IMG/VR virus record: IMGVR_UViG_3300013006_000879
Span: 1-23,238 of that record
Reading direction: 5' to 3' (one strand)
DNA length: 23,238 nt
From: a virus
The translations under genes were made by a program, and so were the position numbers. Shown here piece by piece: positions 579-15,578 of the stretch (within the stretch, counting starts at the first letter, position 1; each line of letters opens with the position of its first letter). The notes under the pieces were generated by a model that worked only from the letters and a program-made list of their open reading frames with translations, was not told the origin of the DNA and searched no databases.

Positions 579-1367
579 ATGACCGATCTCTACGCTACAT
601 TAGGTGTGCCCAGAACTGCTGCCGCTGACGAAATTAAAAAAGCTTATCGTAAGTTGGCCAGCCAACACCATCCGGATAAAGGTGGCGATACTGCCAAGTT
701 CCAACAGATACAAACTGCCTACGACACATTGTCTGATCCGGCCAAGCGTCAACAGTACGATAGCCCACAACCACAGTGGGGAAATTTTGCACAAAACACA
801 GGAGGTCAACAATTTGATTTTAATACAATTTTCAATGTGTTTGGAGCACAGTTTAATCAGCAACGTCGACAACAGACGCCCATTAGCAAAATAAATGTAT
901 CAATCAATTTGGTTGATGTAATCACAGGGGGCAAACGTACCATTGGGCTAGGGCACGGACAAGGCAACACCATTGAAATAGAAATACCACAAGGCATCAA
1001 CAACGGTGATGGTATTCAATACAGAGGATTGGCGCCAGGTGGCGGAGATTTAATTGTTACATTCAGAGTTGCACAACATCCAGACTGGCAGCGTGACGGA
1101 TCAAATCTATTTACAGATCATAACATCGAAGTTTGGGATCTTATCATAGGCGGCGAGTCCACAGTCAAAGACATCTTAGGGAATAACATAACCATTATGA
1201 TACCGCCCGGCACACAACCAGGTGCTCGAATGAGATTACGAGGTCACGGAATACCCGGCAAAAATGGCCCTGGTGACATAATTGTAACAATACAAGCAGT
1301 CATACCCAAACACATACCCGAAGATTTGTTAAATATGATAAAACAAGAAAGAGCAAATCACAGTTGA
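579..1367 (+). CDS. DnaJ/CbpA-like co-chaperone
   Basis: 262 residues. Residues 1-65 are a J domain with the HPD tripeptide at 31-33, which stimulates the ATPase of an Hsp70 partner. A Gly/Phe/Gln-rich linker (about 65-95) and a C-terminal substrate-binding region (from about 103, with ITGGKRTIGL, IEIPQGINNGDGIQYRG and IPPGTQPGARMRLRGHG) follow. The zinc-finger CxxCxGxG repeats of type I DnaJ are absent, so this is a type II (CbpA/DnaJB) protein. No hsp70 gene is in the window, so it presumably recruits host DnaK. It has its own sigma70-like promoter and directly precedes a ClpA-like unfoldase, suggesting joint work in protein folding or remodelling during virion assembly or host takeover (inference). 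Confidence 0.9.
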   Translation: MTDLYATLGVPRTAAADEIKKAYRKLASQHHPDKGGDTAKFQQIQTAYDTLSDPAKRQQYDSPQPQWGNFAQNTGGQQFDFNTIFNVFGAQFNQQRRQQTPISKINVSINLVDVITGGKRTIGLGHGQGNTIEIEIPQGINNGDGIQYRGLAPGGGDLIVTFRVAQHPDWQRDGSNLFTDHNIEVWDLIIGGESTVKDILGNNITIMIPPGTQPGARMRLRGHGIPGKNGPGDIIVTIQAVIPKHIPEDLLNMIKQERANHS

Positions 1368-1392
1368 TTTAATCAACTATTCACAGTATAAT
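1364..1392 (+). promoter_or_regulatory. sigma70-type promoter for clpA-like gene
   Basis: TTGATT (1364-1369, overlapping the dnaJ stop) and TATAAT (1387-1392) are 17 bases apart. Imperfect palindromes cover both boxes: GTTGAT/ATCAAC at 1363-1377 and ACAGT/ACTGT at 1383-1399. These could be operator sites, but that is only suggested by symmetry. Confidence 0.65.
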
Positions 1393-1424
1393 ACACTGTA
1401 CGCAACAAATCTATAAAGAATACA

Positions 1425-3704
1425 ATGCAAAATAATCCCGAAATTGATGAAATTGTTAACAACGCAATTGTTATTGCAACCGAGTATAACCATTCATACG
1501 TGATAACCGAACATGTATTGTTATCAATGATTCAGTATCCGCCATTTCGAACTCTGTTAGAAAAGTACGGTACTCCAGTTGAGCAACTTGAAGCAGAGGT
1601 ATCCGCATACATTTTATCTCAAATCAGTTTGCTTGCTGAACACAAAAATATAACACCACGCAAAACCAACGCATTAGAGAGAATGTTCAATCGAGCATTG
1701 ACACAGGTGCTGTTTACAGGTCGCAGGGCCATAACAATGTTGGATTTGTATCTGGCCATGATGAGCGAAACTAATAGTCATGCGCATTATTATTTGTTAA
1801 AATACAATGTTACCAAAACTGAGTTTTCTGAGTTTTTCCATAAGAACTACAATGCTCATGACAGAAAAATTACAAATTCCAAAGCAGACGAAATCTTAGG
1901 CGAGCACTGTATTAACTTTGCTAGACTTGCACAAGAAGGGCGCTTGGAACCCTTGATTGGTCGTGTTGCCGAGCTTGATGAAATGATCACTGTGCTGGCT
2001 CGCAAATTCAAAGCCAACGTGCTCATGGTGGGTGATCCTGGTGTAGGCAAAACTGCTGTGGTTGAAGGACTTGCACAAGAAATTCAAGCCGGGCGTGTGC
2101 CTGAATTCCTTAAAGGCAACGAAGTCTGGGGACTAGAAATTGGCTCGTTGCTGGCAGGATCTAAGTATCGCGGCGAGTTTGAAGAAAAGTTCAAGGATAT
2201 TATTTCAGCATTACAGGCCAAAAAGAACTGTGTGTTGTTTATTGACGAAGCTCATACCATGATGGGTGCAGGTACAAATGGCAATTCAAGTCTAGACTTT
2301 GCCAACATGATCAAGCCTGCAATCACACACGGACATTTAAAAGTCATTGCATCCACCACCTGGGAAGAATACTACGAATCGTTTGAAAAAGATCGTGCAC
2401 TAATGCGTCGATTCCACAGAGTCAGCATTGGCGAACCAGATGATGCAACCACAGAACAAATTCTCATTGGACTCAGTCCAAGACTAGAACAGTTCCACAA
2501 TGTGATGATTGACACAGATGCAATTACCACAGCAGTTGAATTATCAGGACGTTATATTCATGATCGCAAAAATCCCGACAAGTCAATTGATTTAATTGAT
2601 GGTGCATGTGCTGCCGAGCGTGTTAAAGATGCAGGCAATGTCACTGTGAACAAAGACATGATCATGGCTCAGGTCAGCCGTGTGACTAGTGTGCCATTGG
2701 ATCGCTTGCAAAATGAACGCAGTGTTAAAATTGTTGAACTTGAAAGCAATGTCAAACAGTTCTTGTACGGACAAGATCAAGCAATCGACACTGTGTTAGA
2801 ACGCATTTACATCAACTTCTCTGGTATTGGCAATGCTAAAAAGCCTATTGCTAGCTTTTTGTTCTTGGGTCCAACAGGCACAGGTAAAACAGAGCTTGCC
2901 AAGTTGTTGAGCGAACATCTCGACATGCAGTTGTTAAAATATGACATGAGTGAGTTCCAGGAAAAACACAGTGTGGCAAGCCTTATTGGTGCACCTCCCG
3001 GGTATGTTGGATTTGATGATGGTAATGTTGGTGGCGGCAAGTTAATCAGCGATATTTCTAAAAATCCTTTTAGCATTTTGTTGTTTGACGAAATTGAAAA
3101 GGCACACCCTGATGTGGTCAACATCATGTTGCAGATGTTAGATGAAGGCAAGATCACTGGCAGTAGTGGCAAAGCAGTTGATGTTAAAAACTGTATCATT
3201 ATTATGACTTCTAACCTGGGTGCTAGGGACAACGAAAACAACAATATTGGCTTCGGCAAAGCACTGGAAAAAACAGGCGAAGAAGATCGTGCAATGAAAG
3301 AGTTTTTCAAACCTGAACTGCGCAATCGCATTGATGCTATTTGTAAGTTCAACAAACTAGACACCTTGGCTATTAAAAAGATTGTGGTCAAGTTCACTGC
3401 AGAGTTACAGCAAAGCTTAATGGCCAAGAACATTCGTTTGCTGTTTGACGAAGCAGTAATTGATATGCTTGCAGAAAAAGGATACGATCCCAAAATGGGT
3501 GCACGTCCGCTATCACGCAAAATTGACGAACTTATTCGTGTGCCGTTGAGCAAGCGAATCTTGTTTGATCGATTGTCTGACTGCTCAATTCGCACATACA
3601 TTGACAATGATCAAATTCAATTTGAAACCACTGTTGCTAAACACACAGCCGTTGTTGACGACCAAGGATATATTTTAATTGACCAAGTTGCCCCACAAGC
3701 CTAA
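1425..3704 (+). CDS. ClpA-like double AAA+ unfoldase
   Basis: 759 residues, the usual ClpA length. It has an N-terminal Clp_N-like helical domain (1-145), then D1 with Walker A GDPGVGKT (203-210), Walker B LFIDEA (271-276) and pore loop KYRGEFE, then D2 with Walker A GPTGTGKT (482-489), Walker B LLFDE (552-556) and pore loop GYVGF (526-530). The coiled-coil middle domain of ClpB is missing, so this is a ClpA-type unfoldase, not a disaggregase. An IGF tripeptide at 608-610 sits where ClpA has IGL, the ClpP-binding loop, so it may dock on host ClpP. No ClpP gene is in the window. It follows the DnaJ-like gene and has its own promoter. Confidence 0.92.
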   Translation: MQNNPEIDEIVNNAIVIATEYNHSYVITEHVLLSMIQYPPFRTLLEKYGTPVEQLEAEVSAYILSQISLLAEHKNITPRKTNALERMFNRALTQVLFTGRRAITMLDLYLAMMSETNSHAHYYLLKYNVTKTEFSEFFHKNYNAHDRKITNSKADEILGEHCINFARLAQEGRLEPLIGRVAELDEMITVLARKFKANVLMVGDPGVGKTAVVEGLAQEIQAGRVPEFLKGNEVWGLEIGSLLAGSKYRGEFEEKFKDIISALQAKKNCVLFIDEAHTMMGAGTNGNSSLDFANMIKPAITHGHLKVIASTTWEEYYESFEKDRALMRRFHRVSIGEPDDATTEQILIGLSPRLEQFHNVMIDTDAITTAVELSGRYIHDRKNPDKSIDLIDGACAAERVKDAGNVTVNKDMIMAQVSRVTSVPLDRLQNERSVKIVELESNVKQFLYGQDQAIDTVLERIYINFSGIGNAKKPIASFLFLGPTGTGKTELAKLLSEHLDMQLLKYDMSEFQEKHSVASLIGAPPGYVGFDDGNVGGGKLISDISKNPFSILLFDEIEKAHPDVVNIMLQMLDEGKITGSSGKAVDVKNCIIIMTSNLGARDNENNNIGFGKALEKTGEEDRAMKEFFKPELRNRIDAICKFNKLDTLAIKKIVVKFTAELQQSLMAKNIRLLFDEAVIDMLAEKGYDPKMGARPLSRKIDELIRVPLSKRILFDRLSDCSIRTYIDNDQIQFETTVAKHTAVVDDQGYILIDQVAPQA

Positions 3705-5351: not shown

Positions 5352-6122
5352 ATGAATTATCTTGTAATTTACCCCGGACGTTTTCACCCATTTCACAAAG
5401 GTCACATGGCCAGTTATGATTGGCTGACCAAACAGTTTGGTGACAACAATGTGTTTGTTGCTACCAGCAATGTGCAAGCACCTATTACTAGTCCTTTTAG
5501 CTACAGTGACAAAGTTGCAATGATGACCAAGCTGGGCATTCCTGCCAGTCAAATTGCCAATGTAAAAAATCCCTATCAAGCCATTGAAATTACCAGTAGT
5601 ATTCCAGATGAAAACCAGCGTGACACAGTGCTAGTGTTTGCCGTGAGTGCCAAGGATGCTGAACGTTTTAATTTTGCCCCTAAAAAAGATGGGTCTTTGA
5701 GTTATTTGCAACCCCTGCCCAAAAATGCAAAAAAACTAAAGCCCATGACCCAGCACGGATATGTTGTTATCACTCCAACTATCAACTTTAAAATCAATGG
5801 AGTAGATGCCAATAGTGCCAGTGAAATTCGCAAACTGTATATCAAGGGCAATGGCCACGACAAAAATCAAATCATAGCGGATTTATACGGACAACCCGAT
5901 CCTGCACTTCGTGACATATTTGACAAGAAATTAGGCATTACTGAACAAACACAAAACTACATACGAGAATCTCGAGCTGTGGACAAAGCTCGAGCTGTGG
6001 ATTGGATGCAACGTGTGCTGGTTTTAGAACAACAGGCTCAAAGTTACACCCAACCCACACAACTAATTTTAACACAATTGACTGTGGATTACATAGACGA
6101 AAAAAATTACGGTCGAAACTAA
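5352..6122 (+). CDS. HxGH nucleotidyltransferase, NMN-adenylyltransferase-like
   Basis: 256 residues. The N-terminus has the cytidylyl/adenylyltransferase signature: YPGRFHPFHKGH with HxGH at 15-18 (H15, G17, H18), and SASEIRKLY at 155-163, the equivalent of the ISxTxxR motif that binds the ATP triphosphate. Family enzymes transfer AMP or CMP to a phosphate substrate; the PGRFxPxHxGH form is common in NMN adenylyltransferases (NadM/NadR type), which make NAD from NMN and ATP. The C-terminal 60 residues are an extra helical region with an 18-base tandem duplication. Substrate cannot be fixed from sequence; pantetheine-phosphate or sugar-phosphate substrates are alternatives. A role in NAD repair during infection is possible (inference). 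Confidence 0.75.
   Translation: MNYLVIYPGRFHPFHKGHMASYDWLTKQFGDNNVFVATSNVQAPITSPFSYSDKVAMMTKLGIPASQIANVKNPYQAIEITSSIPDENQRDTVLVFAVSAKDAERFNFAPKKDGSLSYLQPLPKNAKKLKPMTQHGYVVITPTINFKINGVDANSASEIRKLYIKGNGHDKNQIIADLYGQPDPALRDIFDKKLGITEQTQNYIRESRAVDKARAVDWMQRVLVLEQQAQSYTQPTQLILTQLTVDYIDEKNYGRN
5971..6006 (+). repeat. two-copy 18-base tandem duplication inside the HxGH enzyme gene
   Basis: CTCGAGCTGTGGA occurs at 5971-5983 and again 18 bases later at 5989-6001. The copies are in frame and encode SRAVDK and ARAVDW. It looks like a small in-frame duplication in the C-terminal extension. Confidence 0.6.
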
Positions 6123-7101: not shown

Positions 7102-10100
7102 ATGAACATACTAGAGTTAGATTCCTACAACCTTGCTGACGCTGTCAAGTTTAATGACCGGTTAAATCCTCGTTTGTGGGACAAAAACGAACACCTACTG
7201 CCAGTGGTGCATGAGAAACTGCTGGCAATAGCAGATGATTTTCGTGAGTTCTTGGGTGTAACAGGATTCGAGCTCAAGGACATCACACTCAGCGGATCCA
7301 ATGCCGCTTACACATACACACCCAACTCTGACATTGATCTACACTTGGTGGTGGACTTGCCGCAGGCTGATGCCAGCAAAGTATATCGCGAATTATTTGA
7401 CGCTAAAAAATATCAATACAACGATCAACACAACATCAGCATTGGCGGATATCCTGTGGAGTTGTATGTACAAGATGCCAACAAGGCACACCATAGTCAA
7501 GGTATCTACAGTGTGTTGAACAATCAGTGGATTGACGTGCCAAAACGTCGAGATGTCGGAGTTGATGACATATCTACTCGTAGCAAGTATGAAGATCTTG
7601 CCAAAAGAATTGATACTGCTGTTGAATCCAATGACCACGAAACTATGGCTAACTTGATGAAGAAAATCAAAGCCATTCGTCAAACAGGACTAGACAAGCA
7701 CGGTGAGTTTGGTCCTGAAAATCTAGCATTTAAAATGCTTCGCAGCCAGGGTGCTATTAAACGCTTGGTTGATGCAAGAGATGCTGCCAAAGATCATGAG
7801 TTGAGTTTGCGAGAACGTGCTCGTGTTAAAAAACCATTTGTGTATGGATTCAAAACTGAAGATGTAGGATCATCCTGGGACGGAGTAAATCCCACTACCC
7901 AGATGTTCTTGAATGAAAAACCATCGTTGTCAACACAAGAAATAGTTTCAGACTTTGTTAATTACTGTGTAGAACAATTGAGCATTGAGCATGATCCAAT
8001 AGTAAAGTTCAAACGTGATCCGGCTTGGAGTGCTCGTAATAAAACATTTGGTCGTTATACCAAAGAAAACAATGTGTTGGAAGTAAGTTTAGCTGGACGA
8101 CATGTCATGGACGTACTACGCACTGTGGCACACGAACTCACACATCAAAGACAAAACGAAGTAGCAGATGTTCCAGATCATGCAGGTGAAACCGGCAGTG
8201 ACTGGGAAAACGAAGCAAACGCAAAAGCTGGTGTGCTCATGCGTGAGTATGCTCAACGACATCCTGAATATTTTGCAGATGGACAAATTGAAGAAAGCTC
8301 TGGTTATATTCCTACAAAAGCCCAGGCCAAGGACCCAAGATTCAAAATGGCATTGACAAAAGATGTACGTCCGGGTGCCACTGGCAAAGAAGCTAACAAA
8401 TTAAACCTGCACACAGATTCACAAGGTCATCCTGGATTGTTAATGACCGGACTGGCCAATTCTTTAAAAGAGTTCAAAGAAACTGGTAAATTGCCACCTA
8501 TATACGAAGACGAACTGTTTGAAATCAACATGGGTCCTGCTAGTCTACGCAAAGAGGCTGCCAAGACAGGTGCCATTGCGGGCATGGAATTTGAAATGAT
8601 TGTGCCCAATGTTGAAGGCGATGATGAAGATGCAGAGCCGGAACCAGACTGGGATTATGATCAAAGTGTTGGCGGCATCAGTGATGCGGTTGATTTCTTT
8701 GATGATGCCGGACAAAACAGCAGAAGAGACCTGGAAAGACTTCGTGAACGCATGCAAGAGAACTATGAACAATGGTTATCCGAATCTTTTGATTCTCGGT
8801 GGGACGGCGATGAGTTAGAGTTTATTTTTAACTACATTAAAGAAAATGCCAGTGCAGAAGAAATTGCAGAAATAATGGGCACAGAACCCAACGAAGATGG
8901 TGAGTATCCTGACCCAGATAAACGAGATTATCTTGATGCCGCAAACAAAATTAGCGAACAAGGCTACGGCAACTATTGGTACGATTCGGCCAGAGAGAAT
9001 GCACAAGAAGAATTCTACACAAATGCTGACCAAGAAAGCGAATGGTTAGAAGATCAAGAAATCAATACCATGCAAGATGTCATGAATACCTTTGGCACAG
9101 TTGATTGGCCACATTGGAATACACCCGGCACTGGTGGCGATAGAAGCATTGAAGATGTGGCCAATGATTTTCAAGATGCCATAGGTCGTGATGTTCAAGC
9201 CAGCGGCAGATATCATTCTGGCGAGGTAGAGCGTCCTAGCACAAAATCAGATCACTATGTGGTTGAACCTGATGGCAGTTTAGAAGGCGACGACTACGGA
9301 GACAAAGGGCTGGAGTTTGTGAGCCCTCCCTTGCCCATTGACGTAATGATCAACGACTTGAACAAAGTCAAACGCTGGGCCAAGGCCAATGGTTGCTACA
9401 CCAATGACAGCACTGGACTGCACATTAATATTTCAGTACCTGACTTTGATCGATCAAAACTTGATTTTGTTAAGTTAGCCATACTCATGGGCGACGAGTA
9501 TATACTGGATCAATTTGGCAGAAAAGGTAATTTTTATGCCAAGTCAGCAATGAAAATTGTCAAAGATAGAATTGCACAAAATCCTGACGATGCACAGGCA
9601 TTGTTGGACAAAATGAAAGGTCAGGTTGAAGAGCTTGCTTCAAGAGCAATTCATTCTGGACACACAGAAAAGTACACAAGTATCAATGTCAAGAGCGGTC
9701 ACATTGAATTCCGTTCACCCGGCGGCGACTGGCTAGATGAAAACTTTGACAAGATTGAAAACACCCTGTTGCGTTTCACAGTGGCACTGAGCGCGGCAAT
9801 GAATCCTGAAATGTATCGCCAGGAATATCTAAAGAAATTGTACAAAATATTGGCTCCCGAAGGCTCAGATGACAGCATCAAATACTTTGCCAAGTATGCC
9901 GCTGGTGAGCTGCCACAGGCTGCATTGAAGAGTTTTGTTCGTCAAGCACAACTAGACCGCAAGTTAAAGAAAGATCCAACTGGTGGTAAACGATACTGGT
10001 GGAAAGTTACTAATCCTGGAAATAGCAATGCTGGTATAGAAGTTGTTGCCACAACCAAACAAGAAGCAATCGAAAAAGCCATTGGTGCAGATGGTTACCC

Positions 10101-10791
10101 AAGCTGGGCTAACAATAAGAGGTCGCTAGTTGTTAAACCATTGAGTCCTTATCAAGAAAAATCTGATCGCGAAGACTCTGCTGAACAGACTCCCAAGTAT
10201 GAAATCTACAACAAGCAAACTGGCAACTCAGTAGAGCCTGCGGATGGAATTACCAACGATGCGGACGCATTGGTTCGCCTGAATGATTATATTGAACACG
10301 GTCCACATGCGTTGCAACGAGGGCAGGCCACTGCTATGTTTGGCATTAGGCCTGTGAATCAAGCTAGTACTACTGCGCCCAGAGGCAGGGAATATCAAAT
10401 CTTCGATCAAAACAGTCAACAAACTGCGGCAGCATTCCTAGCGCCAAGTGATGAGGCAGCACTGGCTAGACTACTTCAGTATCAGCGCAGGAACCCCGAT
10501 GATCCATATGGTGTGCGCACTGCCAATGGAGTTGAAGTAGTTGACATAGACATACCAATGGCTCCGGGTCGTGCGGCACAACCTGGTAGCACAACAGATT
10601 TACAACAACAACGCACAGCACCCGGCACATTTACTGGTGCTTGGAAGGTAGTTGTTTCTAGTACTGGTGAAGAAGTGTATCGCTTTTCGGGCATAGGTAA
10701 CAACCAAGGCGATGCCAACAGAGTTGCCGCAGACTGGGCGCGACGATCTAGATTAGACGATCCAATTGAAGTTTTACCAATCATGAGTTAA
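7102..10791 (+). CDS. multidomain nucleotidyltransferase / zincin / amidoligase protein
   Basis: 1229 residues. Residues 1-130 resemble a polymerase-beta-type nucleotidyltransferase: GSNAAYTYTPNSDIDLHL has the GS motif and DxD (D77, D79), with a possible third acid near 119-125. Residues about 275-395 carry a zinc metallopeptidase motif, HELTH at 344-348, with ENEANAKAG (369-377) as a likely third ligand. A linker module (SGYIPTKAQAKDPRF to FEINMGPASLRKEAA) leads to an amidoligase-like domain: GMEFEM (494-499), GLEFVSPP (736-743), GLHINIS (772-778), HIEFRSPGGDW (867-877). The C-terminus holds four degenerate repeats (966-1227). Amidoligases form amide bonds between amines and carboxylates using ATP. 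The combination suggests a protein or metabolite modifying polyprotein; whether it is cleaved is unknown. Confidence 0.85.
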   Translation: MNILELDSYNLADAVKFNDRLNPRLWDKNEHLLPVVHEKLLAIADDFREFLGVTGFELKDITLSGSNAAYTYTPNSDIDLHLVVDLPQADASKVYRELFDAKKYQYNDQHNISIGGYPVELYVQDANKAHHSQGIYSVLNNQWIDVPKRRDVGVDDISTRSKYEDLAKRIDTAVESNDHETMANLMKKIKAIRQTGLDKHGEFGPENLAFKMLRSQGAIKRLVDARDAAKDHELSLRERARVKKPFVYGFKTEDVGSSWDGVNPTTQMFLNEKPSLSTQEIVSDFVNYCVEQLSIEHDPIVKFKRDPAWSARNKTFGRYTKENNVLEVSLAGRHVMDVLRTVAHELTHQRQNEVADVPDHAGETGSDWENEANAKAGVLMREYAQRHPEYFADGQIEESSGYIPTKAQAKDPRFKMALTKDVRPGATGKEANKLNLHTDSQGHPGLLMTGLANSLKEFKETGKLPPIYEDELFEINMGPASLRKEAAKTGAIAGMEFEMIVPNVEGDDEDAEPEPDWDYDQSVGGISDAVDFFDDAGQNSRRDLERLRERMQENYEQWLSESFDSRWDGDELEFIFNYIKENASAEEIAEIMGTEPNEDGEYPDPDKRDYLDAANKISEQGYGNYWYDSARENAQEEFYTNADQESEWLEDQEINTMQDVMNTFGTVDWPHWNTPGTGGDRSIEDVANDFQDAIGRDVQASGRYHSGEVERPSTKSDHYVVEPDGSLEGDDYGDKGLEFVSPPLPIDVMINDLNKVKRWAKANGCYTNDSTGLHINISVPDFDRSKLDFVKLAILMGDEYILDQFGRKGNFYAKSAMKIVKDRIAQNPDDAQALLDKMKGQVEELASRAIHSGHTEKYTSINVKSGHIEFRSPGGDWLDENFDKIENTLLRFTVALSAAMNPEMYRQEYLKKLYKILAPEGSDDSIKYFAKYAAGELPQAALKSFVRQAQLDRKLKKDPTGGKRYWWKVTNPGNSNAGIEVVATTKQEAIEKAIGADGYPSWANNKRSLVVKPLSPYQEKSDREDSAEQTPKYEIYNKQTGNSVEPADGITNDADALVRLNDYIEHGPHALQRGQATAMFGIRPVNQASTTAPRGREYQIFDQNSQQTAAAFLAPSDEAALARLLQYQRRNPDDPYGVRTANGVEVVDIDIPMAPGRAAQPGSTTDLQQQRTAPGTFTGAWKVVVSSTGEEVYRFSGIGNNQGDANRVAADWARRSRLDDPIEVLPIMS
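9997..10779 (+). repeat. four degenerate ~50-residue coding repeats
   Basis: The C-terminal part of the 1229-residue protein has four related segments: WWKVTNPG (966-1013), YEIYNKQTGNSV (1033-1085), YQIFDQNSQQTA (1097-1148) and WKVVVSSTGEEVYRF (1180-1227). Each has an aromatic-x-[IV] strand, a TG or similar turn, a second strand, and an Ala/Glu helix, as in small alpha/beta modules. Divergence is high, so they are old duplications. Confidence 0.5.
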
Positions 10792-10792
10792 T

Positions 10793-11434
10793 ATGCGAGC
10801 ACAAGAATTTATTGTAGAAGTTTTTAATCAACCCTATAAAATACTTCGATGGGAAAAAGGTGACTTTGGTGATGTAGACGCAATAGCACGATTGGATGAC
10901 AACACCTTTCTAAGTATTATGTTCAACAAGGGATTTGGTAAAGATACAAAAGAGGAAACATGGAGTGTTGAGTTTTATAGAAACAACAGCCAACAAGTCA
11001 CAGGAGAAGGTGATCAACAACGTGTGTTTGCCACAGTGTTAAGTGCTATACAACAGTTTATCGACACTGAACATCCTGTTCACATTCGCTTCTCTGCTAA
11101 CAAAGATGTTGACCCAGGACAAAAATCACAAACTCGATCAAATCTATACAACAAGTTAGTTCAGCGTTATGCCAACAGTTGGGGATATAGTGTTGATATT
11201 GACGATTTTGCTGATACTACTGTATATAATTTATATACTCTACACGAAAGTGTAACGGAAAACTTTGCCGACGGCAAAGTAAAAGGCAAGAGTCGCCCAG
11301 GGCGTGTTAAACGGTCGGGTGCCAGTTGCAACGGATCAGTTACTGATCTACGTGCTCGTGCCAAGAATGCATCAGGCGAAAAGGCCAAGATGTATCACTG
11401 GTGTGCCAACATGAAATCAGGGAAAAACAAATGA
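10793..11434 (+). CDS. probable internal head protein with capsid-targeting-like N-terminus
   Basis: 213 residues. The N-terminus MRAQEFIVE|V matches the T4 internal-protein targeting peptide (MKTYQEFIAE|A), which the prohead protease removes after Glu. Residues 10-150 form an alpha/beta domain (YKILRWEKGDFGDVDAIARL, WSVEFYRNN, HIRFSANKD). The C-terminal 55 residues, from ENFADGKVKGKSRPGRVKRS to RAKNASGEKAKMYHWCANMK, are a basic module I recognise as recurring at the ends of many T4-like phage proteins, with two Cys here. It starts 1 base after the preceding stop and its TGA overlaps the next ATG (ATGA). Packaging in the head and a DNA-binding tail are inferences. Confidence 0.65.
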   Translation: MRAQEFIVEVFNQPYKILRWEKGDFGDVDAIARLDDNTFLSIMFNKGFGKDTKEETWSVEFYRNNSQQVTGEGDQQRVFATVLSAIQQFIDTEHPVHIRFSANKDVDPGQKSQTRSNLYNKLVQRYANSWGYSVDIDDFADTTVYNLYTLHESVTENFADGKVKGKSRPGRVKRSGASCNGSVTDLRARAKNASGEKAKMYHWCANMKSGKNK

Positions 11435-12159
11435 GAGCCATAGAATTTATAGTAGAGAATGCCAGTGAGATCGTGTCTGCCAGTGATGATGGCAAAACTA
11501 TCACAATTAAGGTGCGGGCACCGGATGGTACGGTACGGTCAATTGCTAATTCAAATCCAGCAATTATACAAAAATGGTTAAATCTCAAATATGGTCTAAG
11601 ACTTCCGCACAGTATTGCTAGAAAGTTTGTGGGTATACCGACTGCAATGGCAGAAGATCAAGCAGATGATCCTGACAGTTGGCAATCACAAGCGGCAGAT
11701 GCTGAACGCAATACTGAAACTGCTCGGATGTCTGCACAAGATGCTGCCGCCGGCGGACTAGCAGAACAAGAACTAGATGAAAAATCTGCAAGCAAAGCCC
11801 AGTTCCGTACAATGGCAGCGGCTGCACACAATCCAGAGTTTGCCAAGAAAGTTGGTATCAAACAGTCTGTTGCTCAAGAATTTCACAGTGCAGACAAAAA
11901 ATCAAACTACAAGACATTGCCCAAGAAAACCGCAGAAGGCGAAGTTGATGAAATGCTTGGATTTACTATTGCTCGAGCAGCCCAGCCCAAAAAGCCTGTG
12001 CCCAGTTTGGCAACAATGCGCAAAGAATTTGAAAAAGATAAATCTGCACAAATTGAAAAACCTGCACAAGGCCGCAGTGGCTCCGGCAATGTAAAATATA
12101 TTCGAAAAACAACAGATGAAGACGGCACTTGGGGCATGCTTGAACAGAAAAAGTCATGA
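11431..12159 (+). CDS. modular protein with capsid-targeting-like N-terminus
   Basis: 242 residues from the ATG at 11431, chosen over an upstream GTG because of the ATGA overlap, an AGGGAAAA ribosome site and the N-terminus MRAIEFIVE|N, nearly identical to that of the preceding protein. Residues 12-68 are a small alpha/beta domain (ITIKVRAPDGTVRSI). The middle is low complexity and acidic, with possible prohead-protease junctions MAE|D (75), LAE|Q (112), LDE|K (117). Residues 118-166 (SASKAQFRTMAAAAHNPEFA onward) resemble the DUF3008-type phage module SKxQQRFM..VAKEF. The C-terminus is basic. It is probably carried in the virion and processed; the function of each module is unknown. Confidence 0.65.
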   Translation: MRAIEFIVENASEIVSASDDGKTITIKVRAPDGTVRSIANSNPAIIQKWLNLKYGLRLPHSIARKFVGIPTAMAEDQADDPDSWQSQAADAERNTETARMSAQDAAAGGLAEQELDEKSASKAQFRTMAAAAHNPEFAKKVGIKQSVAQEFHSADKKSNYKTLPKKTAEGEVDEMLGFTIARAAQPKKPVPSLATMRKEFEKDKSAQIEKPAQGRSGSGNVKYIRKTTDEDGTWGMLEQKKS

Positions 12160-12362: not shown

Positions 12363-12644
12363 ATGAAACAATTTGTTCGTGTATTATGTGACGTTGAGTG
12401 TAAGTGGACTGGTAAGCCTCCTGTTTACCGTGCCTACATTGACGACGAATTGTTTGCTGAACGCACATGGATTTGGCACAACGAATATCTCGAAGAAATG
12501 TTTCAAATTGAAGCTGTGCCCGGAGATTATGCCATACGTTACGAGCTTGTGTCATCGCCTGACGCTTTTTTAAAAGTTTCAAACATACGAGTTGAGCACG
12601 GCCCTGGTAGAATAATAGATAACACTTTAAGGATTGGACGATGA
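12363..12644 (+). CDS. small beta-rich phage protein
   Basis: 93 residues: strand-rich segments KQFVRVLCDVECKW, PVYRAYIDDELFAERTWIW, YLEEMFQIEAVPGDYAIRYEL and FLKVSNIRVEHGP. The ERTWIW...EYLEEM...PGDY pattern looks like a compact beta domain found in other T4-like phages, possibly carbohydrate- or virion-binding. Two Cys (9 and 13) are close together. Its stop overlaps the next ATG by four bases. It has no ribosome site and follows a TAAATA box, so it may be expressed late from a leaderless message. Function unknown. Confidence 0.6.
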   Translation: MKQFVRVLCDVECKWTGKPPVYRAYIDDELFAERTWIWHNEYLEEMFQIEAVPGDYAIRYELVSSPDAFLKVSNIRVEHGPGRIIDNTLRIGR

Positions 12645-12841
12645 AAGCCAGTGAATTTATCAAGGAAAATGCATCTGTGGGTGGCACCTCTTCTGGTTCT
12701 GTTGCCACTGTGGCATCTCCTTTGGGCGGCGTAATATCAAGAAATGGTGATAGTTTCTTTGCTGGTAAATATACCACGGATCCTTTTCCCAATACCCCAA
12801 AAAGAATGAGAAAGAAACAAGGAAAAACAAATGTTAAGTGA
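12641..12841 (+). CDS. short protein with capsid-targeting-like N-terminus
   Basis: 66 residues starting in an ATGA overlap. MKASEFIKE|N is the clearest match here to the T4 internal-protein N-terminus. The mature part would be about 57 residues: a Gly/Ser/Thr-rich stretch (ASVGGTSSGSVATVASPLGG), ISRNGDSFFAGKY, and a basic tail (PKRMRKKQGKTNVK). Low-complexity Ser/Gly followed by a basic tail would suit a DNA-associated internal head peptide (inference). It overlaps the start of the Dps gene by 11 bases, so the two are likely translationally coupled. Confidence 0.65.
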   Translation: MKASEFIKENASVGGTSSGSVATVASPLGGVISRNGDSFFAGKYTTDPFPNTPKRMRKKQGKTNVK

Positions 12842-13271
12842 TTTGCTAAAGACCTATTTGGCCAGTACATTTTCGTACTACTTAAAAGCACACTATTTTC
12901 ACTGGAATGTGGAAGGACCTGACTTTGGCGAACTACACGATTTTTTCTCAGACATCTACGAAGATTCCTATTCGGCTGTGGATCCCATTGCTGAATACAT
13001 ACGCACCCAGGATGAATATGCACCAGGCAGTCTCTCCCGCTTCCTAGAATTGACACAAATCCCTGATCAAACCAAAGTACCACGTGCTCGTTTGATGCTA
13101 GAAGAATTACTTGCAGACACACAAACCATGATTGACCTAAGCCTGTCTGTGTTCAACGAAGCCACCGGGGCTAATCGTCAAGACATTGCCAACTTTGCCG
13201 CTGAACGCCAAAGTCAACACGGCAAATATATGTGGCAACTAAAAAGTTATTTAAAGGAAGCAAGGGCATAA
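12831..13271 (+). CDS. dps: Dps-type ferritin-like protein
   Basis: 146 residues, close to typical Dps length. FHWNVEGPDFGELHDFF is the Dps/ferritin-like signature. Assuming an ungapped alignment to Listeria Dps (offset 7), the ferroxidase ligands fall on H24, H36, D51 and E55, all present. The C-terminal helix ERQSQHGKYMWQLKSYL also fits. Dps proteins form 12-subunit cages that oxidise Fe(II) with peroxide and protect DNA. The N-terminus is short and lacks the Lys-rich DNA-binding tail. AAGGA lies upstream of the ATG, which is inside the preceding gene. In a phage it may protect DNA from peroxide damage or act inside the virion (inference). Confidence 0.88.
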   Translation: MLSDLLKTYLASTFSYYLKAHYFHWNVEGPDFGELHDFFSDIYEDSYSAVDPIAEYIRTQDEYAPGSLSRFLELTQIPDQTKVPRARLMLEELLADTQTMIDLSLSVFNEATGANRQDIANFAAERQSQHGKYMWQLKSYLKEARA

Positions 13272-13272
13272 C

Positions 13273-14046
13273 ATGGACGAAATGCACAGCATAATGCAAC
13301 GACTTGCATTGATTGAAAGTCAAATTACGCCAGACTCAGTGACCAAAGGATTAAACGCACAGCAACGGTCTGTGCCGCAGATGCCTGCACTGTTTAAGAT
13401 GCCTGCACAAGGTCCTGTGCTTGGCGGTGATCCGGATAAAAAAGCACCCAGTGCCGGCTACATGGTAGGTGCCAGTGAAGACGAAGAAGTTGAAGAAAAA
13501 GTCAGCGACTTCTTGCCTAAGAAACCAGACCATGCTAGTACTCACAAGCTGGTCAAAGGCTGGAGAACTGTACACGGACTTGACGAAGAAGTGGCCAGCG
13601 AAGATAAATTAGACAAGGTTAAAAAATCTTTTGCAGATTATCTTGACAGCATCAGCAACGAAAAACAAGACACTGATTTAAAAGACCGAGTCAAGGCCGA
13701 TACGGACCTTAAGAAAAAAGACAAAAAAGATCACAGTATTGTAGCCAAGCAGATCACTGCCGTGGCCGAAGATCCTACAGAAGAAGATCCCATCATTCAA
13801 ATGCCCACAACTCCCATGCAGAATCCTGTGTACGGCGAGTCAGCACCTGTTAAGACTGTGGCATTAGAAGACGGCCGTGCATGCGAAATACATGGTGACG
13901 AAGGAAGAGGATTTGAAATTCGTCACGGGGGACGTTCACTAAAAAGCCGTTTTAAAAATTTAGACCAAGCACAAATGGCTGTGGAAATGTACCAAGCTAG
14001 ACAACGCAAACAAAATGAGTCTGCTGATTATATTGAGGAAGCATAA
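13273..14046 (+). CDS. modular acidic phage protein
   Basis: 257 residues, starting 1 base after dps with AAGG upstream. The N-terminus MDEMHSIMQRLALIE|S could carry a cleavage site after LIE (15). The middle (65-170) is highly charged, with Lys/Asp/Glu repeats and a VAE|D junction (166). A C-terminal domain (about 192-257, VKTVALEDGRACEIHGDEGR then FEIRHGGRSLKSRF and ADYIEEA) is a compact module I recognise as recurring in phage mosaic proteins. The helix ADYLDSISNEKQ lies near 121-132. No enzyme motif is seen. The stop overlaps the next start by one base (TAATG). Possible virion-packaged or scaffold-like protein. Confidence 0.6.
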   Translation: MDEMHSIMQRLALIESQITPDSVTKGLNAQQRSVPQMPALFKMPAQGPVLGGDPDKKAPSAGYMVGASEDEEVEEKVSDFLPKKPDHASTHKLVKGWRTVHGLDEEVASEDKLDKVKKSFADYLDSISNEKQDTDLKDRVKADTDLKKKDKKDHSIVAKQITAVAEDPTEEDPIIQMPTTPMQNPVYGESAPVKTVALEDGRACEIHGDEGRGFEIRHGGRSLKSRFKNLDQAQMAVEMYQARQRKQNESADYIEEA

Positions 14047-15578
14047 TGAATTTAAATGACCTATACGAAATAAGAGACCCACGCGATGCATATGAACGTG
14101 ACGTTGACAATAGCACCAGTGGGTTTGGCAAAGACTCCTATGCATATCAGCAAGATGGTGGAGCCAATGATGAGAATCATGCATTTGACCAGCAACCCAC
14201 TTGGTATATTCGCCTTAATGGCAAACTCATTAAAGACAAGCAAGGTAACCCTTATGCATTCCAAGACAAAGCTGCCGCAAACAAAGCCGCTTTAAACATG
14301 CAGGCCAAACTGTTCAATAAAGACAAAGAGTTCATGTTGACTACCAACCCCAATGATAAACCCCAAGGCATGGCAGAAGGTCTAGTAGGTGCCGCATTAG
14401 GTGGCTTAGCAGGTGCCGCGTTAACCAAGTCTCCCGGTGGGGCAATGACTGGTGCATCAATTGGCAGTAACATACAAGATACTTTGAGTGATGATACCGA
14501 AGTAGCAGAAGGGTTCGGTGCAAACTACGCAGAACAACTAGCACAAAAGGTATTTGATGTTAAACCCAACTTGGCCAGTGACGACGATGTGTTAAACACA
14601 GGATACAAAGTTGCTGTGCAAGATCTAATGAGCCAGGTACGTGCAAATCATTTGTTTGCAAGAGATCAAGATTTCCCTAGCGATTTTGCAAGTGCTTATT
14701 ACTACTTGCAAAAACGAGGCGTAGCAGAAGGCCACACAGAAGTAAAAGACAAAGAAGGCAAAGTTGTCAGTTGGAAAGACGACTCAGAATGGCACCCAGC
14801 TGAAAAGAACAAGCAAGGCCAACCTAAAGATCCACGTGGCGTAGTCACACACATGAGCGATGTTGCTCGGCGTAAAACTGCTAGCCAACAAGGTGTAGCA
14901 GAAGCCGAAGTAGACAGCGATGGCCACTCAATGGATCACGCTGACTCTGGCGAGTACGATTACGAAGGCGACCAAGCAAAAGACCAATTAAACACCATTG
15001 TACGGGCGGCTCGCAGACTCAATGGCATGTTGGATGACAACGAAAACATGCCAGAGTGGGTACAGATGAAAATTACCAATGCTGCCGATTATATTGACAC
15101 AGCCGCTGACTACATTGAATCCAATCAAGAGCCCGAGTTGGATGAAGGCTGGAAAGAAAAGCTAGGCGGTGCGGCATTAGCAGGTGCAATGGCACTAGGC
15201 GCAGGCAGTGCCCAAGCTAGAGTTACCCCTGATGGTCAAGGTGGCTTTACCGGTGGATTAAAACCTGCAACAACGCAACAAGCAACTGACGTTGCTCCTG
15301 CAAAAGCAGAAGCTCCAAAAGGATACAGCAAAGAATACCTACAAAAAGCAGCCAACCCTGATAGATTTGGTAGGTACATGATCAGCGTCGAAAAGGCACA
15401 AGAGTTACTAAAGCAAATGAACGAAGGTGACAAAATTGGCAACATGGATGCCGACAAGTTTGATGCGGTCATGGCACGTCTTAAACAGTTGGCCGGTGCA
15501 GGTCCAATGAAAACTGTGTATGACCCTACTAAACGTGTGTACAGAAATGTTCCAACAGCGGTGCAACCTAAAAAATGA
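14046..15578 (+). CDS. mosaic polyprotein of phage modules joined by xAEG linkers
   Basis: 510 residues. Modules are separated by hydrophobic-x-Glu sites: MAE|G (111), VAE|G (155), VAE|G (228), VAE|A (286), LDE|G (367). Module 1 has TWYIRLNGKLIKDKQG and a helix; module 2 is a glycine-zipper stretch (GLVGAALGGLAGAAL); module 3 is helical (NYAEQLAQKVFDVKP to SAYYYLQKR); module 4 has VKDKEGKVVSWKDD; module 5 is a helix pair ending EWVQMKITNAADYIDTAADY, seen in many T4-like phage proteins; module 6 starts with a hydrophobic Ala/Gly segment (372-392). Linker DNA is also similar (GTAGCAGAA at 14502, 14721, 14894). This looks like a protein built by module shuffling, perhaps cut in the prohead. Confidence 0.65.
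   Translation: MNLNDLYEIRDPRDAYERDVDNSTSGFGKDSYAYQQDGGANDENHAFDQQPTWYIRLNGKLIKDKQGNPYAFQDKAAANKAALNMQAKLFNKDKEFMLTTNPNDKPQGMAEGLVGAALGGLAGAALTKSPGGAMTGASIGSNIQDTLSDDTEVAEGFGANYAEQLAQKVFDVKPNLASDDDVLNTGYKVAVQDLMSQVRANHLFARDQDFPSDFASAYYYLQKRGVAEGHTEVKDKEGKVVSWKDDSEWHPAEKNKQGQPKDPRGVVTHMSDVARRKTASQQGVAEAEVDSDGHSMDHADSGEYDYEGDQAKDQLNTIVRAARRLNGMLDDNENMPEWVQMKITNAADYIDTAADYIESNQEPELDEGWKEKLGGAALAGAMALGAGSAQARVTPDGQGGFTGGLKPATTQQATDVAPAKAEAPKGYSKEYLQKAANPDRFGRYMISVEKAQELLKQMNEGDKIGNMDADKFDAVMARLKQLAGAGPMKTVYDPTKRVYRNVPTAVQPKK
14502..14902 (+). repeat. dispersed linker repeat GTAGCAGAA
   Basis: Copies at 14502-14510, 14721-14729 and 14894-14902 are all in frame and encode VAE at module borders. A variant with ATGGCAGAA is at 14370-14378. 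The last two exact copies and the variant share a [CG]AAGG- or GAGGC-like upstream context. They could be recombination points for module exchange or simply encode a conserved cleavage site. Confidence 0.5.

Follow-up and report, generated by a model that had tools for sequence, protein, structure and literature searches.

Polyvalent proteins of phages and conjugative elements were described by Iyer et al. in 2017 (PMC5512222). For phage T4, ten residues of the internal protein IPIII suffice for packaging, and the protease gp21 cuts after L/I-x-E (PMC9026906); in the T4 record, ipII and ipIII both begin with MKTYQEFIAE, followed by A. The window analyzed here, all 23,238 nucleotides of a 23.2-kb virus record from IMG/VR (IMGVR_UViG_3300013006_000879), encodes a protein that recalls both systems. 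An unbroken open reading frame (ORF) runs on the plus strand from an ATG at 7102 to a stop codon at 10791, and its product, of 1229 amino acids (aa) and 138 kDa, joins three unrelated enzymes in one phage chain: a nucleotidyltransferase (NTase), a gluzincin-type metallopeptidase, and an amidoligase. It thereby carries at least two unrelated enzymatic domains on a single mobile-element chain, as polyvalent proteins do. We consider it probable that 7102-10791 is the gene for a virion-cargo polyprotein of T4-like, often jumbo-sized phages, which a gp21-type prohead protease would cut into pieces that act in the host. The domains, their folds, the swapping of modules among relatives, and a site motif at module junctions are the observations behind this reading.

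A first-pass annotation, made from the DNA letters and their translations, had named these three enzymes and listed their catalytic signatures in this order. All three signatures are present and conserved far above chance, and the domain assignments are correct. Residues 1-236 (7102-7809, plus strand, as are all features below) form the NTase module, assigned to the Pol-beta type from its motif and family alone. G65, D77, and D79 are invariant across 16 NTase homologues, and S66 is nearly so. On the isolated domain, the Pfam model NTP_transf_2 (PF01909) reaches 23.3 bits (cut-off 21); on the full chain its match, at residues 58-109, has 19.1 bits. PHROG 36119, a family of stand-alone phage proteins (about 247 aa) with no named function, covers residues 8-235 with an E-value of 1e-44. 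Pol-beta NTases of this kind transfer a nucleoside monophosphate (NMP) onto proteins or RNA.

The zincin module occupies residues 276-392, approximately (7927-8277), and was recognized by alignment, an AlphaFold2 model, and Foldseek. Its HELTH motif lies at residues 344-348 (8131-8145), and the predicted third zinc ligand is E369 (8206-8208), so that HExxH is joined by a downstream Glu ligand as in gluzincins. None of 39 zincin sequences departs from H344, E345, or H348, and E369 is conserved in at least 90%. Pfam and other family scans of the 1229-aa protein itself gave no family match for this domain. Among the 39 homologues, DUF6782, a "putative metallopeptidase", weakly matches 26 and Peptidase_M78 matches 17; both match better than PF18818 (MPTase-PolyVal), which finds 4 members with a best E-value of only 0.013. 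The AlphaFold2 model, built from the 39-domain alignment, has a pLDDT of 86, rising above 90 through the core. The top 18 Foldseek matches to it are zincins, going by their titles, and include the minigluzincins jannalysin and abylysin, selecase, Wss1, IrrE/PprI, CapP, and a Mycobacterium tuberculosis regulator. The best of these have E-values of 7e-3 to 2e-1 and probabilities of 0.7-1.0; VIA-align gives Z up to 8.9, with an rmsd of 2.8 over 99 residues. Because the Foldseek E-values are modest, the predicted fold is argued from these structural matches together with the invariant HExxH, and the HELTH helix is placed within a zincin fold as the first-pass annotation held. Zincins related to IrrE and CapP cleave regulators.

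Between zincin and amidoligase is a conserved segment, found by alignment of relatives and designated the GYIP module (residues 397-447; 8290-8442). At 51 aa it is among the best-conserved parts of the family, and it occurs as a separate gene in two loci, L032 and L050. Neither Pfam nor cultured phages yielded a match to it. The amidoligase follows at residues 475-921 (8524-9864), identified by Pfam, a structural model, and Foldseek, and is predicted to have a glutamine-synthetase-like fold with a helical insertion. Amidoligase_2 (PF12224) matches residues 682-877 with 38.7 bits against a cut-off of 22. The model, from an alignment of 21 domains, has a pLDDT of 81 and a pTM of 0.53. Glutamine synthetases and related ligases lead its Foldseek matches (best E-value 5e-3), agreeing with the fold that had been proposed for residues 494-877; VIA-align gives moderate values (Z up to 9.1, rmsd 4.1 over 146 residues), and the best viral structure matches bear the name amidoligase. 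A search of bacterial genomes with this domain returned one partial match, in a metagenome-assembled genome. Searches of PDB sequences with the full protein and with zincin, amidoligase, and NTase profiles found no significant match. Amidoligases make peptide-like bonds. In the C-terminal region (9913-10788), where four repeats had been reported, a profile search supports only one significant repeat-type unit, at residues 1173-1228 (10618-10785): the profile of this last unit finds itself alone in the protein, the next candidate scoring -2.9 bits. Two significant copies of the unit occur in some relatives.

Relatives were collected as 64 loci from a scan of viral contigs, and architectures were counted in the 44 complete proteins of a redundancy-reduced set. 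NTase, zincin, GYIP module, and amidoligase occur together in 24 of the 44. Other combinations are NTase, zincin, and GYIP module (5), NTase and zincin (4), and NTase and amidoligase (2), while single-enzyme proteins carry NTase only (5) or zincin only (4). The largest relatives reach 2082 aa and include extra NUDIX, ParB-like, and GP88 modules. These counts bear on one way of explaining the fusion, a multienzyme of the cytoplasm that would treat a single substrate in three successive steps: nucleotidylation, cleavage, and amide ligation. A chain with these three activities had been proposed in the first-pass annotation beside the polyprotein idea. All three enzymes do appear in the same order in the 24 proteins just mentioned. 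However, the large records G002 (342 kb) and G007 (355 kb) have NTase and zincin with no detectable amidoligase, two relatives join NTase to amidoligase without a zincin, others have the NTase alone, and in four loci (L059, L062, L063, and L064) NTase and zincin are encoded apart. Because relatives carry the enzymes in partial sets or in separate genes, the three do not constitute an obligate pathway; a module can be lost, split off as a gene, or swapped. An NTase homologue is, moreover, present in virions (see below). We rejected the single three-step enzyme for the separability of its domains among relatives, and regard it as very improbable. One chain of a different kind was seen at locus L065 (2304-5009), where a 901-aa protein starts like a nucleotidyltransferase and continues with a zincin and a kinase domain of the zeta-toxin/AAA_33 type; the zincin there keeps quite different company from the zincins of other relatives.

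The loci around these genes are rich in short N-terminal leaders resembling those of T4 internal proteins. The pattern M[RKNDTS]..[ED][FILVMY][ILVFM].E (spacing 1-3) begins 115 locus ORFs, against 1.4 expected from shuffling, and the consensus of 93 distinct 9-residue leaders is M-R-A-x-E-F-[ILV]-x-E. Nine of 12 large relatives encode both Peptidase_S77, the gp21-type protease, and a gp23-type capsid protein. T4 gp23 loses a 65-residue propeptide, residue 65 being the Glu of SFLTE, which AEIG follows, and the relatives' capsid proteins have, near the N-terminus, YLKE then NASAGST or YLAE then SATAG. An alignment puts the relatives' sites and that of T4 gp23 in different columns, so this likeness is consistent with shared processing but is not proof of it. 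The capsid gene match of a 345-kb record (L078, G008:193317-194306) contains a TAA in frame; the gene may be interrupted, or the sequence may be in error.

The motif that ends these leaders recurs between the modules of the fused proteins. In the 1229-aa chain a first candidate for prohead-protease cleavage is I-E-E398/S (8287-8295), where IEE precedes SSGYIP at the commonest insertion point in relatives. Two further candidates are L-N-E272/K before the zincin (7909-7917; FLNE then KPS), in a low-confidence model segment, and L-F-E474/I before the amidoligase (8515-8523; LFE then INMG), conserved in relatives, where [LIVMF]xE is found at the E474 position in 26 of 26 aligned sequences. All three lie within low-confidence ends of the models, and cuts there would give pieces of 31.0, 14.4, 8.3, and 84.5 kDa. 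In nearly all full-length GYIP copies, a Glu stands 1-3 residues ahead of the (A/S)xGYIP start. The QPY module of the next gene (10793-11434) lies inside the polyprotein in four other loci, where it is preceded by VNE then A (L019), VNE then S (L023), VTE then S (L030), and ITE then A (L004). A cultured phage, Vibrio phage R10Z (Straboviridae), has the same module within a 306-aa protein, directly after VNLTE. A lipoprotein-like module (KDKLAAAAAAACIAGTPGCATT) also follows [LIV]xE in L019 (protein 8001-10589, residues 407-480 approximately), L023, L030, and L050.

Counts over the whole set agree. Of 112 breakpoints of insertions of at least 60 aa, 77 carry [LIVM]xE followed by a permitted residue, compared with 15% of windows overall. 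An initial junction test accepted only alignments that began past the Glu, a bias against exact matches, and it gave way to searches with mature modules stripped of their leaders. These gave 78 distinct internal module starts, with Glu at P1 in 74% and a hydrophobic residue at P3 in 72%; the two occur jointly at 54 of the 78, compared to a background of 1.8%, while positions P4-P13 are at background. Because P3 and P1 are enriched and P4-P13 are not, modules fused inside longer proteins retain the cleavage half of the leader and have lost the targeting half. The L/I-x-E of gp21 substrates is thus found at mature boundaries.

The same counts address two other accounts of the chain. One, a published hypothesis for the zincins of polyvalent proteins, including DdrB of phage P1, is that the zincin cuts its own chain (PMC5512222), and the catalytic residues of the zincin here are intact. 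Yet the exact junction motif is found in 44 of 59 cases from zincin-free proteins, compared to 10 of 19 from zincin-bearing ones, and the motif corresponds to the known specificity of gp21 and not to one of a zincin. Self-cutting is therefore improbable in our judgment, and the zincin as main cutter of the chain is disfavored by the occurrence of the motif in proteins that have none. The other account, to which we give somewhat more weight while still finding it unlikely, is a packaged polyvalent protein that remains uncut, its joined modules working together and its junction [LIV]xE sequences being relics of fusion or parts of the fold. The virion RNA polymerase of phage N4, also zincin-bearing, is packaged uncut (PMC5512222), and stand-alone homologues likewise carry the L-x-E before the amidoligase and an S-L-x-E at the NTase end. 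Relics, however, should decay evenly, whereas P3 and P1 are retained and P4-P13 lost, and the same boundary motif is common to unrelated module families.

Evidence for packaging comes from Synechococcus phage S-CREM2. Its protein gp156 (126012-126725) is homologous to the NTase module but stands alone (36% identity across some 227 aa, E-value 3e-39). Mass spectrometry detected it in CsCl-purified virions through 6 unique peptides, with 15.2% coverage (PMC10665884). The proteins gp137 (4 peptides) and gp160 (7 peptides) were likewise detected in virions (PMC10665884), and share modules with leader-led proteins of our loci (73% identity over 96 aa and 78% identity over 41 aa). Through these homologues, virion packaging has support for the NTase and for two further modules of the system. 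The S-CREM2 cytidylyltransferase gp154, whose N-terminus is MKNFSSFLTE then A, was detected in virions as well (PMC10665884); it is a weak homologue of the product of a cytidylyltransferase-like gene upstream in the window (5352-6122).

Taken as a cargo polyprotein, the chain would probably be made late and incorporated into the prohead core, where a gp21-type protease would cut its disordered links after [LIV]-x-E, with E398, E272, and E474 the best candidates. The released NTase, zincin, and amidoligase would ride in the head alongside the DNA and, once injected, act separately in the newly infected host: the NTase by transferring NMP to a target, the zincin by cutting a host or immunity protein, the amidoligase by amide ligation to a protein or peptide. 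Cleavage at the candidate bonds, injection, and the targets of the three enzymes are what we infer; that all three act on host defense is a guess. More broadly, we lean slightly toward a combinatorial cargo system in T4-like and jumbo phages, in which dozens of effector modules shuttle between leader-led genes and protease-separated polyproteins, are cut only in the maturing head, and can be delivered several enzymes to a chain. If so, head cargo could be recognized from genome sequence alone, either by its leader, M[RK]xxEF[ILV]xE, or by an internal junction of the form [LIV]xE, a rule applicable to many uncultured T4-like phages, and the cargo so read would include possible counter-defense enzymes of the first minutes of infection. 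A tailed phage would then be using a polyprotein strategy for its cargo, and for this phage group the idea of processing by zincin would be replaced.

Several points weigh against the cargo polyprotein. The motif is short, and its density over whole proteins barely exceeds that of shuffled sequences (215 vs 188, s.d. 13); because it shows no overall enrichment, the case rests on its position. The junctions are related by descent, so binomial p-values overstate the strength of that positional enrichment, and L-F-E/I, with its unusual P1' residue, may be part of the fold. The first six residues, MNILEL, are similar to the part of a leader that directs proteins to the capsid, with Glu at 5 and a hydrophobic residue at 6, but the chain start MNILELDSY has no [LIV]xE cut site at the right place, and for that reason targeting of the 1229-aa chain to the head can only be presumed. 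The 23-kb window contains no protease or capsid gene that would confirm its own virion type. Virion detection covers homologues of single modules and not the fused family, and the S-CREM2 authors call gp156 hypothetical and warn that non-structural proteins may be carry-over (PMC10665884). On balance the comparative evidence, with likely cut sites at junctions, supports the polyprotein that had been suggested from the sequence.

The polyprotein gene begins a run of further cargo candidates. The gene directly after it (10793-11434) opens with a capsid-targeting-like leader, MRAQEFIVE (10793-10819), and its QPY module would start with VFNQPYK after the cut; module sharing and the leader pattern also mark it. 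The leader pattern identifies two more genes, at 11431-12159 (MRAIEFIVE then N) and 12641-12841 (MKASEFIKE then N). A motif scan of the 510-aa protein at 14046-15578 found the internal separators GMAE/G, GVAE/G, and GVAE/A, and this protein is probably a second cargo chain; it also has a glycine-zipper-like stretch. A ferritin-like gene of the Dps type (12831-13271) lies within the leader-led run, itself without a leader. A short leader-led module, NFADG, was not matched by any cultured phage. Upstream of the cargo run, at 579-3704, are DnaJ-like and ClpA/ClpB-like genes, as in many related loci.

Each of the nearest described systems shares part of this arrangement. The first-pass annotation knew of no described system like it: the exact trio of enzymes was indeed not found in the literature searched, but the general kind has been known since 2017 (PMC5512222). 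In the part of the literature that was searched, no paper on phage cargo polyproteins cut by a prohead protease was found. Polyvalent proteins are alike in being large multi-enzyme chains, with zincins as the commonest domain, Pol-beta NTases among the others, and packaging, injection, and processing proposed (PMC5512222). They differ in that their NTases are found mainly in mobile elements of firmicutes, usually fused to ArdC-N, in that the word "amidoligase" is absent from the text of their description, and in that processing is ascribed to the zincin (PMC5512222), whereas the junction sites here are of the prohead-protease type and the modules interchange with leader-led genes. The amidoligase of Agrobacterium phage Atu_ph07 (AUZ94978.1) is homologous, with 30% identity and the same initial L-x-E-(hydrophobic)-x-M, but is a stand-alone protein of 500 aa. 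The S-CREM2 virion proteins include the NTase homologue gp156 and share cargo modules in gp137 and gp160, but are encoded by separate genes, with the NTase unfused to zincin or amidoligase, and their authors propose no function (PMC10665884). The capsid targeting leaders of T4 IPII and IPIII are laid out alike and share the L/I-x-E cut motif (PMC9026906); T4, however, has one leader for each single-domain gene, while here modules are also strung together, separated by the cut motif alone. The variant described here pairs a chain of the polyvalent type with T4-type leaders and prohead-protease junctions.

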